DNA of 64,000 nt from Synechococcus sp. WH 8101 (lineage in GTDB: Bacteria > Cyanobacteriota > Cyanobacteriia > PCC-6307 > Cyanobiaceae): positions 1,426,001-1,490,000 of the forward strand of contig NZ_CP035914.1 in assembly GCF_004209775.1 (NCBI RefSeq), in the 5' to 3' direction. The position numbers and the translations under genes are program-made. The stretch's first letter is position 1; each line of letters begins with the position of its first letter. A model generated the notes under the pieces. It made no database searches. It was not told the origin of the DNA and saw only the letters and a list, made by a program, of their open reading frames with translations. Positions 10,084 to 47,038 of the stretch are shown here, one piece after another.

Positions 10084-11265
10084 TCACTGGGAAGGTGACT
10101 GTCCCTCGCTCGGAAGCTGGCGGTCAAACGTTGTGCGGCCGAAGGTTTTTTCCGTGATCGCATGGATGCGGCCGGAGCGATTCAGCTCCACGATCGACAC
10201 ATCCAGCGCTGTACCCAGAGGGCTGCCGGCTGGAAAGGCAAAGCCATAGGTCTGATCCGCCAGGGAAAAACTGGCGAGCTTGAAGCCATTGTTGGGATTC
10301 TGCTGCTGGTAGTAGCGCAGCACAGGTCGGTCGAACATCACACCGTGCACCTTGCCTTGCTTGAGCAGGCTGATCGCCGCGTCCAGGTTGGCTGCCGCCG
10401 TGGGCCTGGCTCCGTAGATCCGCGCCCACACCGCACTGGTGGTGCCCTCCACCACCGCAATCGGCTCCCCGGCCAGCGCTTCCGGACGCTGGATCGTGCC
10501 CGGTGCCCAGCGGGAGAACGACACCGTGAAGGCCGAAGCCAGACCGGCGGTGACAGATGACAGGGCCACCAGCGACAGCACCATCCAGACCCCGGCAATG
10601 GTGCGACCTGTGCGCGACAGGGGCGCCCGATCGCCGTATCCCACCGTGGTGAGGGTCACCAGTGCGAACCACATCCCGTTGCCGACGCCGTGGAAGTAGT
10701 GCCGCGGGAACTGTTCATAGTTGCGCCGCCGTTCCGCCAACCAGATCAGGTTGCCGACGATGAACAGCAACAGCATCAACACCCCCAGCGATGAGAGAGC
10801 GGCCCAACCGAAAAAGGGAGCGAGGCGGGAGAGCAGACCTGGCGGCCGGATCGGCACCAGAAGACCGAGCTGACCATGGAAATAGGGCTGACTGAAATCG
10901 ATCGCTTTCTGGGCCAGTCGATCCGGTGTGATGCTCAGCGGTCCGATCGCCAGGTCAACCTGTCGCTCGGCCACCGCCTTGAGATTGGCCTCAGCATTGG
11001 CTTGACGCACCAACACGAACGGTTGATCGAGTTGATCGGCGACCTCACGCCACACCTCCACGCTGATCCCGGAGAAGGCATCGTCGCGCTCAAACACAAA
11101 GGGAGGACTGCCGCTGACGCCCACCCGGATCGTGGCGGGCAGCCCGGCCTCGAGGGCAAGGCCTCGACTGCCGATGGCCAGGCCGGAGAGGGCCAGCAGG
11201 GAACAGAGCAGGGACAGCCGTTGGCGCAACGTGCTCCCTCCGTGAGACTGGGCCATGGCTATCAC
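10084..11265 (-). CDS. GluR0-type ligand-gated potassium channel
   Basis: Protein of 393 residues with the full prokaryotic glutamate-receptor layout. A signal segment (about 12-38) is followed by periplasmic lobe S1 with the amino-acid-binding signature LSITPDR (Arg116) and IDFSQPYF. Then come M1 (about 152-175), a pore loop with K+ selectivity filter TTVGYGD at 206-212, M2 (about 222-250), and lobe S2 with VMFDRP (Asp312) as the likely ligand-amine contact. Synechocystis GluR0 is the founding example, a glutamate-gated K+ channel. The ligand here may be any amino acid, since the binding residues are only partly readable. The PPC-glutaredoxin gene follows 40 bp downstream, so the two may be one transcript. 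Confidence 0.9.
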   Translation of the reverse strand: MIAMAQSHGGSTLRQRLSLLCSLLALSGLAIGSRGLALEAGLPATIRVGVSGSPPFVFERDDAFSGISVEVWREVADQLDQPFVLVRQANAEANLKAVAERQVDLAIGPLSITPDRLAQKAIDFSQPYFHGQLGLLVPIRPPGLLSRLAPFFGWAALSSLGVLMLLLFIVGNLIWLAERRRNYEQFPRHYFHGVGNGMWFALVTLTTVGYGDRAPLSRTGRTIAGVWMVLSLVALSSVTAGLASAFTVSFSRWAPGTIQRPEALAGEPIAVVEGTTSAVWARIYGARPTAAANLDAAISLLKQGKVHGVMFDRPVLRYYQQQNPNNGFKLASFSLADQTYGFAFPAGSPLGTALDVSIVELNRSGRIHAITEKTFGRTTFDRQLPSEGQSPSQ

Positions 11266-43442: not shown

Positions 43443-43733
43443 ATGGCCCAGCAGCGGGACACGGCCAGCGGCACCCTGATCACCCTGGTGAGTGGTGCCG
43501 TTCTCGGAGCTGCCGGGCTCGCCTGGTGGCTTCTTTCCGAGGCGGACCGACGCCAGCGCGGCCAGCGGCAACGCAACATGCTCTACGCCTCGCGCCTCCA
43601 AGACGGGAGCGAAGCCAGCGATCCCAGCCGGCGTCGGAACAACCAGGCCCAGCTTGAGCAACGGGTGGAGCAACTCAACGCCGCCATCGCCGATGTGCGC
43701 CGTCAGCTCGAAGATCTGGGCGCCAGGAACTGA
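43443..43733 (+). CDS. small membrane protein with coiled coil
   Basis: Predicted 96-residue protein. One transmembrane segment (about 10-31, LITLVSGAVLGAAGLAWWLL) is followed by a basic stretch (RRQRGQRQRN) and a C-terminal helix with heptad character (LEQRVEQLNAAIADVRRQLE, ending near residue 92). The N-terminus is probably outside the cytoplasm. No family recognised. It lies 24 bp after upp and 54 bp before ilvD. Confidence 0.65.
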   Translation: MAQQRDTASGTLITLVSGAVLGAAGLAWWLLSEADRRQRGQRQRNMLYASRLQDGSEASDPSRRRNNQAQLEQRVEQLNAAIADVRRQLEDLGARN

Positions 43734-43787
43734 GGGCTGCGCTCGGTAGGTTGGCGTCAGTCAATCACCGGGCTCCGGCTGCCATCG

Positions 43788-45458
43788 ATGCTCCGCTCCG
43801 ACGCCGTCACGCAGGGGATCCAGCGTTCACCCAACCGAGCCATGCTCCGCGCCGTTGGCTTCGGGGATTCCGATTTCGGCAAGCCGATCATTGGGATCGC
43901 CAACGGGTACAGCACGATCACGCCCTGCAATGTGGGGCTGAACGACCTCGCCCGGCGCGCTGAGGAAGCGGCCCGATTGGCCGGTGGCATGCCCCAGACC
44001 TTCGGCACGATCACGGTCAGTGATGGGATCTCCATGGGCACCGAGGGGATGAAATATTCCCTCGTGAGCCGTGAGGTGATCGCCGATGCGATTGAAACGG
44101 CCTGCAATGGCCAGAGCATGGATGGTGTGCTGGCCGTGGGCGGCTGCGACAAGAACATGCCCGGGGCGATGATCGCCATGGCCCGGATGAACATTCCGGC
44201 GATCTTTGTGTATGGCGGCACCATCAAGCCGGGCAAGCTCGGTGGCTGCGACCTCACGGTGGTGAGTGCGTTTGAGGCGGTGGGTCAGATCACCAGCGGC
44301 AAGATCGACGAAGAACAGCTCACAGCGATCGAAAAGAACGCCTGTCCGGGCGCGGGGAGCTGCGGCGGCATGTTCACCGCCAACACCATGAGTGCCGCAA
44401 TCGAAACGATGGGGCTGAGCCTGCCCTACAGCTCCACCATGGCGGCGGAAGATGCCGAAAAGGCCGAGAGCGCGGCGCGCTCCGCCGAGGTGCTGGTGGA
44501 GGCGATCCAACAAAACATCCGTCCCCTCGATCTACTCACCCGTGAAGCGTTTGAAAACGCCATCAGCGTGATCATGGCGGTGGGTGGCTCCACCAATTCC
44601 GTGCTGCACCTGCTGGCGATCGCCCGCACCGCGGGCGTGGAACTGAGCATCGACGATTTCGAGCGGATTCGGCAGCGAGTGCCCGTGATCTGTGATCTCA
44701 AACCCAGCGGCCGCTTCGTGACGGTGGATCTGCACCAGGCCGGTGGCATCCCCCAGGTGATGAAACTGCTCCTCGATGCCGGCCTGCTCCACGGCGACTG
44801 CCGCACGATCGAAGGCAAGACCCTCCGCGAGGTGCTCGCCGCTGTGCCGTCGGTCCCCCCCGCCGGCCAGGACGTGATTCGCCCCCTGAGCCATCCGCTC
44901 TATGCCAAGGGGCATCTGGCGATTCTCAAAGGCAACCTGGCCGAGGAAGGCGCGGTGGCCAAGATCAGCGGCGTCAAAAACCCGGTGATCACCGGCCCAG
45001 CCCGCGTGTTTGAAAGCGAGGAAACCTGCCTGGCCGCCATTCTCGACAAGCAGATCAACCCCGGCGATGTGGTGGTGGTGCGCAATGAGGGGCCGGTGGG
45101 AGGCCCGGGGATGCGGGAGATGCTCAGCCCCACCTCGGCGATCGTGGGCCAGGGGCTGCTCGACAAGGTGGCTCTGATCACCGATGGCCGCTTCTCAGGC
45201 GGCTCCTATGGCCTGGTGATCGGCCATGTGGCTCCAGAGGCCGCGGTGGGCGGCACGATCGGCCTGGTGCAGGAAGGCGACAGCATCACCGTGGATGCGA
45301 ACCAGCTGCTGATTCAACTCAACGTGGATGCAACCGAGCTGGCCCAACGCCGGGCCGCCTGGACCCAACCCGCACCCCGGTATCGCACCGGCATCCTCGG
45401 TAAATACGCCCGACTGGTGAGCTCCAGCAGTGTGGGAGCGGTCACCGATCAACCCTGA
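43788..45458 (+). CDS. ilvD: dihydroxy-acid dehydratase
   Basis: Fe-S enzyme of 556 residues that dehydrates dihydroxy acids in valine, isoleucine and pantothenate synthesis. Three Cys for the cluster can be located: in [16 protein letters not shown] and [15 protein letters not shown]. The C-terminal [11 protein letters not shown] motif holds the active-site Ser. Length is standard. ATG 43788 starts [10 protein letters not shown] as in other cyanobacteria. Oxygen sensitivity is typical of 4Fe-4S versions, while 2Fe-2S forms are oxygen-tolerant. The GluR-like gene begins 28 bp downstream. Confidence 0.97.
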
Positions 45459-45486
45459 CGGACTGTCCGCCGGAACCCGCTCAGCC

Positions 45487-46608
45487 ATGGCTCCCCTCAG
45501 AACACCGCTGCTGCAGCTCGCAGCCTTGGTGGTTTTGCTCGCCCCCATCTCCGCCAGGGCCATGCCCCTGCGGGTGGGGGTCCCGATCGATCAGCCCCCC
45601 TGCAGTGAAGGCAGCAGCAGCGGTGGATATCGCGGCTGGGCTTACGACACCTGGGGCTCGATCGCCGATCATCTCGATCGAGACCAACTCCTGGTTCCGC
45701 TCGACTCGCTGGAGGCAGGACTGCAGGGTCTCGAAACCAATGCGCTGGATGTGCTCGCGACGTGTCTGACCAATACGCCAGGACGTGCCGCCCGGATCGA
45801 CTTATCCCTGCCCATCCGGGAAGACAGCCTGCGCTTGATCCAGAAGCGATCGGTCACCCCCCTGCAGGTGACCTTGGCTGTCGTCTCCAATCAGGTGCTG
45901 ATCGGTAGCTTGATGCTTCTGGTGGGCCTCTCCTGCCTCACGGCCGTGCTGCTGCAGGTTGCCGAACGGAACCATCAAGCGGTCAGCCCCCCACCAACCT
46001 GGCCGCAATTGCTCCGGCAGCTGCTGCAGAACACCGGAAGCTTGATCATCGGCTCAGGCATCCATTCCCTGGGCAGCCGATCTGCATCCATTTTGATCTG
46101 GACCAGTTTTGGCCTGATTCGCCTGGTGATCGCCGCATTCGTCACCGCCAGTCTCACCACTTGGCTGATCAACAAAGATGAGGCCGGTCCGCGCTTTCAG
46201 CTCCCAAGCCGCACGGCACGCGTGGTCTCAGCAAACGACCGGATCGGTGTGATCCAGAACCATGCCGCTGAGGAAATCCTCCGGGCTGCGGAGCTCAGCA
46301 CGGGAACGCAGTTCAAGCACCTGCGTCGCTACAGCAACCTCACGGCCCTGGCGCAGGCGGTGGCCCGGGATGAGGTTCGCTTCGGTGTGGTCGATAGCCA
46401 GGAGGCGATGGCGCTCACCAGCCAACGGCCATGGCAGCAGATGCTCACTGTGAACGAAGCCCGCAAGGCCTACTTCAGTTTCAGTCAGAGTTTTGGCTTC
46501 AATCCCCGCCTCCCCCAGGCGACCCAGCGGCAGATCAACCAAGGAATTAGCCGCCATCGGCTCCAACAGGCGCTTCTCGAGTCGGTGAACAGCACCTCCG
46601 AACCGTGA
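45487..46608 (+). CDS. GluR-like receptor protein lacking a K+ selectivity filter
   Basis: Protein of 373 residues with the same order as the GluR0-type channel at 10084. Signal peptide about 1-25; S1 lobe with DVLATCLTNTPGRAARIDLSLP (Arg100 or Arg103 as ligand contact); M1 about 133-158; pore-loop region 176-198; M2 about 200-227; S2 lobe with FGVVDSQEAM (Asp303 region). In the pore loop the K+ filter TVGYGD is replaced by GSLIIGSGIHS (184-194). It may be a channel with other selectivity, a non-conducting sensor or a subunit of a mixed channel. ATG 45487 is chosen for the signal peptide. It lies 28 bp after ilvD. Confidence 0.75.
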   Translation: MAPLRTPLLQLAALVVLLAPISARAMPLRVGVPIDQPPCSEGSSSGGYRGWAYDTWGSIADHLDRDQLLVPLDSLEAGLQGLETNALDVLATCLTNTPGRAARIDLSLPIREDSLRLIQKRSVTPLQVTLAVVSNQVLIGSLMLLVGLSCLTAVLLQVAERNHQAVSPPPTWPQLLRQLLQNTGSLIIGSGIHSLGSRSASILIWTSFGLIRLVIAAFVTASLTTWLINKDEAGPRFQLPSRTARVVSANDRIGVIQNHAAEEILRAAELSTGTQFKHLRRYSNLTALAQAVARDEVRFGVVDSQEAMALTSQRPWQQMLTVNEARKAYFSFSQSFGFNPRLPQATQRQINQGISRHRLQQALLESVNSTSEP

Positions 46609-46648
46609 CCGTCTCGCCGCAGCGGCGATCCTCTCAGCCGGCAAACGG

Positions 46649-47038
46649 TCAGAGATCAGAACCGCACAGCAACGCCCGCAGCCGCCGCGCCAGTGCTTCC
46701 AGTGGCGCCCCATCGCGAGGGCGCTCACACCGTTGGCCACTGCTGCCATCCATCCACACCGGATGGGATCCCTGCCAGAGCAACGGCCGCTCATCCTGCT
46801 GCCACCAACTGAGCATCAGGTGCAGATCAGCGCCACTGCGATAGATCTCCAGCTCCAGATCCAGCTCAGGGCGTCGGTCGCCGCCAGGGTCCCTGCTTTC
46901 AATCCGCAGGTGGGCGTCGTCTGCGGTCAGATCCACCGCACCATTCACGTTTGACTCCCCAACCACAGGCACGACCGCATGCCGCTGCGGTTTGAGGCAC
47001 ACATCCGCCGCCGCGGCAATCAGCACCTGCAAATCCAT
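46649..47038 (-). CDS. conserved hypothetical protein
   Basis: Predicted 129-residue soluble protein from ATG 47038, which overlaps the CIA30-gene stop by one base (TGATG). Segments AVDLTADDAHLRIES and LDLELEIYRSGADLHLMLSWW suggest beta strands, and the C-terminal LEALARRLRALLC is a helix. No known family. Its tight coupling to the CIA30-like gene suggests a common process. It is convergent with the GluR-like gene (40-bp gap). Confidence 0.65.
   Translation of the reverse strand: MDLQVLIAAAADVCLKPQRHAVVPVVGESNVNGAVDLTADDAHLRIESRDPGGDRRPELDLELEIYRSGADLHLMLSWWQQDERPLLWQGSHPVWMDGSSGQRCERPRDGAPLEALARRLRALLCGSDL

Follow-up and report, generated by a model that had tools for sequence, protein, structure and literature searches.

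A glutamate-receptor-like protein with a replaced potassium filter in Synechococcus sp. WH 8101 and its clade in the Cyanobiaceae

Gene and locus

The window analysed here, a stretch of 64,000 nucleotides from Synechococcus sp. WH 8101, contains an intact 373-aa ORF on the forward strand, which starts with the ATG at 45487 and ends with the stop codon at 46606-46608 (Table 1). An in-frame GTG at 45430 offers an alternative start that would result in an overlap with ilvD; a signal peptide of good quality follows directly after the ATG. A chance or misread ORF was rejected on the intact frame and the predicted fold. The GC3 of the gene (75%) is similar to that of its neighbours, no sigma-70-type promoter of its own was found, and no transporter permease or ATPase was recognised among the neighbouring ORFs inspected. 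A K+-type GluR0 paralogue is encoded 34 kb away.

In the nearest relative (G003) and two other genomes, the downstream gene follows ilvD with almost nothing in between. An intact orthologue nevertheless occupies this locus in G160, a genome of another genus, with the order ilvD, GluR-like gene and same downstream genes, which makes an old locus with losses at least as likely as a recent insertion; the locus data fit both an old locus with repeated loss and an exchange by recombination. A recent insertion with target-site repeats is not favoured, given this orthologue and the lack of flanking direct repeats, and a cyanophage origin was rejected, with zero matches among 50,697 phage records. No partner gene common to the loci of the clade was found beyond closely related genomes, and ilvD, the only common neighbour, is shared by two genomes, which is too weak for a functional clue. 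Within ilvD (window 43600-44800), the identity to the nearest relative is approximately 79-84% over the first two thirds and 92-97% in the flanks, and that to more distant genomes stays at approximately 81-87%; judged from these values, the segment looks like one that recombined in the nearest relative.

Table 1. Positions in the window of the GluR-like gene, its predicted elements and the genes used for comparison
Feature	Position	Strand	Basis or remark
ilvD, 28 bp upstream of the GluR-like gene	43788..45458	+	Same neighbour in closest orthologue (G160)
Segment that three relatives lack at this site	45459..46666	+	blastn breakpoints 45458/46667 vs L164, L165, L167
GluR-like protein, non-K+ pore loop, 373 aa, GxG clade	45487..46608	+	ORF; SBP_bac_3 1.4e-10; AF2 pLDDT 86.3; Foldseek
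Signal peptide, ~residues 1-26 (MAPLRTPLLQLAALVVLLAPISARAM)	45487..45564	+	Hydropathy; model helix 7-17; putative cleavage site
Ligand-binding lobe 1 (S1), residues 27-122	45565..45852	+	SBP_bac_3 28-122; VIA-align to 1ii5
Cys39, invariant with Cys93 (85/85); Phe in K+ paralogues	45601..45603	+	Clade alignment
Cys93, invariant partner of Cys39; Pro in K+ paralogues	45763..45765	+	Clade alignment
Arg100, α-carboxylate-binding Arg of GluR0-type receptors; invariant in all aligned sequences	45784..45786	+	Alignment; role PMC2950845
Pre-M1 helix, residues 125-134	45859..45888	+	AF2
M1 helix, residues 136-161	45892..45969	+	AF2, hydropathy
Pore helix, residues 172-188	46000..46050	+	AF2
Altered filter loop GSGIHS, residues 189-194, aligned to GYGDRA of K+ type	46051..46068	+	Alignment, selection, hhalign
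M3 helix, residues 199-232	46081..46182	+	AF2, hydropathy
Arg212, conserved charge in mid-M3	46120..46122	+	80 R + 4 H of 86
Ligand-binding lobe 2 (S2), residues 250-362	46234..46572	+	AF2, VIA-align
Asp303, equivalent of the α-amino-binding Asp; 77/85 in clade, 18/18 in K+ type	46393..46395	+	Alignment; role PMC2950845
K+-type GluR0 paralogue with TVGYGD (comparison)	10084..11265	-	ORF, Pfam

Domain layout and predicted structure

Pfam recognises only SBP_bac_3 in the 373-aa protein, and NCBIfam likewise only a binding-protein domain; Lig_chan and Ion_trans_2, both strong matches in the K+-type paralogue, gave no Pfam match. The AlphaFold2 model, computed with 51 family sequences and with a mean pLDDT of 86.3, shows a complete GluR architecture in the order signal helix, lobe 1, pre-M1 helix, M1, pore helix, loop (residues 189-198), M3 and lobe 2, with a pLDDT mostly of 78-93 in the membrane region (M1, pore helix and M3). 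The membrane segments thus lie between the two halves, S1 and S2, of a single binding domain, a re-entrant pore helix is predicted between M1 and M3, and the S1 Arg and S2 Asp are both present, as in the iGluR superfamily. This agrees with the original prediction, according to which the lobes and hydrophobic segments were kept in the same order as in the K+-type protein, and the pore helix on which it depended is predicted both here and in a second clade member (loop GPGSNT, pLDDT 89.7), which has an identical set of elements.

The top Foldseek matches of the model are AMPA and NMDA receptor chains, covering the LBD and the TMD (E ~1e-13). VIA-align superimposes it on the LBD of GluR0 (1ii5) with a Z of 23.6 and 2.6 Å over 209 residues, and on full iGluR LBD-TMD chains over approximately 300-320 residues, while the family profile matches plant GLR3.4 and NMDA 2C across the TMD and lobe 2.

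The altered filter loop

The pore loop reads ...TGSLIIGSGIHSLGS..., with GSGIHS in place of TVGYGD. Alignment of the family profile to the K+-GluR0 profile by hhalign (E 3e-37, 330 columns) sets GSG in register with the GYG of TVGYGD, bearing out the claim that the loop is altered just where the K+ filter was expected; neither a T-x-G-Y-G filter nor Ion_trans_2, the marks of K+-selective GluR0, is present, and a search for a K+ filter moved elsewhere in the protein found none.

Across the clade the two glycines of the loop are well kept (G189 in 80/85, G191 in 82/85 sequences). For residues 183-196, the pooled pN/pS is 0.050 (8 nonsynonymous and 56 synonymous differences in 16 pairs of clade members, some of which have a sequence in common, so that the counts are not fully independent), against an overall value of 0.32 and values of 0.27 in lobe 1, 0.36 in lobe 2 and 0.17 in M3. 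By this measure the loop is the most constrained segment of the protein across the clade; random decay of the loop is ruled out at the level of the clade, and the conservation among orthologues that the original prediction looked for does hold for the clade, as distinct from the WH 8101 lineage, which lacks close orthologues. The loops differ between the sub-clades, with GPG[ST]NT in the largest one and GEGDAE, GSGTYK/GTGIYK, NDGIDT and the GSGIHS of WH 8101 in others, and GTGLNL in the nearest relative of the protein, L115; as read from these sequences, no single filter chemistry is defined.

Distribution and phylogeny of the GxG clade

When 400 Cyanobiaceae genomes were searched with a profile and a strong match was defined as E <1e-40, this GxG clade was detected in 86 of them (86 sequences), with the K+ type well apart at approximately 1e-20 to 1e-30. 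In one genus it is near-core, 31 of 42 genomes having exactly one copy; the named members include Cyanobium, Aphanothece and Synechococcus strains. In a sample of 390 genomes from the class, the Cyanobiaceae alone gave matches of GxG strength, and the outside matches examined were K+ types or belonged to a non-K+ clade with an ATLATQ loop. In the maximum-likelihood tree, the clade forms one group (41 non-redundant sequences, support 95/94) apart from the K+, ATLATQ, GGAD and STDH types.

The closest orthologue of the WH 8101 protein, L115 from G160, is 36% identical to it, and the protein sits on a long branch; its lineage evolves fast. When held out, it still keeps 25 of the 28 positions that are conserved in at least 85% of the sequences, which is within the range of other members.

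A K+-type GluR0 accompanies the GxG gene in 14 of the 86 clade-positive genomes (WH 8101 and 13 others) and was detected in none of the remaining 72 at E 1e-50, to which the near-core genus belongs. This distribution makes an obligate K+ partner for the clade unlikely.

Conserved residues of the ligand site and the pore

The S1 Arg and S2 Asp have been named as the defining residues of prokaryotic GluRs (PMC2950845), and their equivalents in the WH 8101 protein are Arg100 and Asp303. Where the lobe-2 helix begins, other members keep a GT/S motif, which in the WH 8101 protein is replaced by N258-H259, so that the side chain of its ligand probably differs from that of theirs. The positions of the invariant pair Cys39 and Cys93 flank the ligand site in GluR-type domains, so a C39-C93 disulfide is plausible.

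The M3 position occupied by Arg212 carries Arg in all six STDH sequences, and Ser in 18/18 K+ types and in both GGAD types. It lies eight residues before the Thr that matches, in the alignment, the Thr of SYTANLAAF, the gate motif of AMPA receptors; the latter Thr we take to be T617 of GluA2. The gate residues reported for GluA2 are T617, A621, T625 and M629 (PMC9068512). The GxG and STDH types lie on one side of a branch with a support of 88/98.7, for which a single origin of Arg212 is enough and two separate origins are needless. The mean net charge from the pore helix to M3 is +4.6 in the GxG clade and +8.3 in the STDH type, as compared to +2.2 (K+), +1.0 (GGAD) and +0.6 (ATLATQ), and the WH 8101 protein has zero acidic residues in 172-228. 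Such a positive pore module leans against a cation channel and is no proof on permeation.

Relation to known systems

Prokaryotic GluRs have been read as glutamate-gated K+ channels and as the ancestors of the eukaryotic receptors. With the K+ type, represented by GluR0 (Synechocystis slr1257) and Group 1 of Ger et al. 2010, the WH 8101 protein has in common the signal peptide, the S1-M1-P-M3-S2 order, the ligand Arg and Asp and the LBD fold, whereas it lacks TVGYGD, has C39/C93 for Phe/Pro and Arg212 for Ser in M3, and falls into a separate clade. Prokaryotic GluRs without a K+ filter had already been noted in 2010 as Group 2 of Ger et al., in which the P region was unrecognised (PMC2950845); the WH 8101 protein has the same S1-M1-P-M3-S2 topology with an unrecognised P region, and the same ligand Arg and Asp. 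The ATLATQ clade, which was sampled for the tree and may correspond to Group 2, is a clade of its own beside the K+ types that differs from the GxG clade in its loop and in lacking an equivalent of Arg212. Non-K+ prokaryotic GluRs are known in principle; in the tree, the GxG clade does not group with the non-K+ clade sampled from cyanobacteria. No description of the GxG clade was found in the part of the literature covered, and it constitutes a family of receptors without a previous name.

Replaced filters are also known from other channels. In NaK and CNG channels, whose overall architecture is different, an acidic residue replaces the Tyr of the filter; the GEGD sub-clade resembles them, whereas the WH 8101 protein has Ser there. 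The NirBac channels are relatives of K+ channels with replaced filters, one of them TTGTD, and NirBac1 channels conduct non-selectively (PMC4607889), which sets a precedent for conduction through a replaced filter. They share with the GxG clade a K+-channel scaffold with a replaced filter, but have a Kir domain instead of a ligand-binding receptor domain and are not homologous outside the pore. For a pore Arg, the edited AMPA receptor GluA2(R) has a detectable chloride permeability, with PCl/PCs of ~0.14 quoted (PMC6754398); its Arg is at the tip of the pore loop, unlike that of the GxG clade in M3.

Proposed mechanism and alternatives

In the model favoured here, to which we give slightly better than an even chance, the protein is a subunit of a GluR0-type tetrameric, amino-acid-gated pore-loop receptor with an altered, non-K+ selectivity. 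A periplasmic α-amino acid or close analogue would close the two-lobe domain, the pocket of which may be stiffened by the C39-C93 disulfide, and domain closure, as happens in GluR0 and AMPA receptors, would draw M3 open. Ions may then pass the pore, which would be lined by the G-x-G loop, non-selectively or with a reduced cation preference, given that the K+ signature has been lost and that R177, R198 and R212 add positive charge to the pore module. In WH 8101 the receptor would act alongside, not inside, the K+-type receptor. Several points count against this model: with four Arg close to the pore axis, the passage of cations would be impeded; the loop varies from one sub-clade to another; and the WH 8101 lineage, besides evolving fast, no longer has the GT/S motif.

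The main rival is a non-conducting sensor, in which the two-lobe domain senses an amino acid and the membrane part signals by conformation or serves as an anchor. We regard this as possible, if rather unlikely: the K+ signature is lost, Arg212 could plug the pore and the loop chemistry varies between sub-clades, whereas a dead pore would be expected to show the reverse of the constraint observed, the loop being more constrained than either ligand lobe. The pore helix and the pre-M1 helix are also kept, no signalling domain is attached, and the clade loci, as described above, offer no common partner gene. In a variant with a conducting pore, which we hold to be distinctly improbable, the GxG clade and the STDH-loop group, its neighbour in the tree on one side of the branch mentioned above, would be a bacterial amino-acid-gated anion channel on the glutamate-receptor fold. 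The helix that lines the pore has a conserved Arg and the pore module is strongly positive, features that would have accompanied the loss of the K+ filter.

There is little chance that the protein is a partner subunit that co-assembles with the K+-type GluR0 of the window and tunes it, although an association specific to WH 8101 is conceivable. The two proteins have the same fold and their genes occur together in 14 sampled genomes, but their TMDs differ greatly in sequence, the genes do not lie next to each other, and the 72 clade-positive genomes without the K+ type weaken this part of the original prediction. Decay of the gene in WH 8101, with retention by chance, is highly improbable in the face of the full-length ORF, the conserved positions kept, a GC3 like that of the neighbours and the intact syntenic orthologue in another genus, even with the gene missing in three relatives, the long branch and a clade copy with two stops in the relative G004. 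That the protein is no receptor at all and instead a membrane-anchored binding protein of an ABC transporter, as the Pfam and NCBIfam assignments might be read, is scarcely credible with M1, the pore helix and M3 inserted between S1 and S2 just as they are in GluR, iGluR chains ranking first in Foldseek and no permease or ATPase recognised among the adjacent ORFs inspected.

Returning to the amino-acid-gated receptor of altered selectivity, the conserved loop, the Cys pair and the charged residue of the pore module together suggest, at the level of sequence, an amino-acid-operated channel for something that is not potassium. The data support the altered pore proposed originally as real and weaken the K+ partnership; the clade, the Cys pair and the M3 Arg had been missed. 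In this large conserved bacterial clade the K+ filter has been swapped for another conserved loop with the receptor body kept, which provides natural material on how a ligand-gated pore changes its selectivity, and points to amino-acid sensing in abundant picocyanobacteria by way of a channel which databases currently annotate as a binding protein.

Other GluR-like sequences

Further GluR-like types were encountered in the genomes sampled. Another Synechococcus, G004, has a GxG copy (L027, G004:C2:1971511-1972575) with the loop LLLSSGVDK and two in-frame stops, beside which it has an intact GEGD-type gene. L118 and L121, from other Cyanobiaceae, are GluR0-like, with Lig_chan still matched, the filter FLVGGADNKG and the Ser kept in M3. 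L183, L185, L188, L189, L192, L195 and L197, from other cyanobacteria, form a well-supported separate clade with the loop ATLATQ(A/D)xMPK and without the M3 Arg.

Two such receptors in the 64-kb window were correctly counted at the outset, and WH 8101 has a third GluR-like gene elsewhere in its genome, L210 (G000:C1:2442800-2445900, match at 2443854-2444816). By its match range it belongs to the group with the loop TLLLSTDHT, whose six aligned members have the M3 Arg and a very positive pore module.
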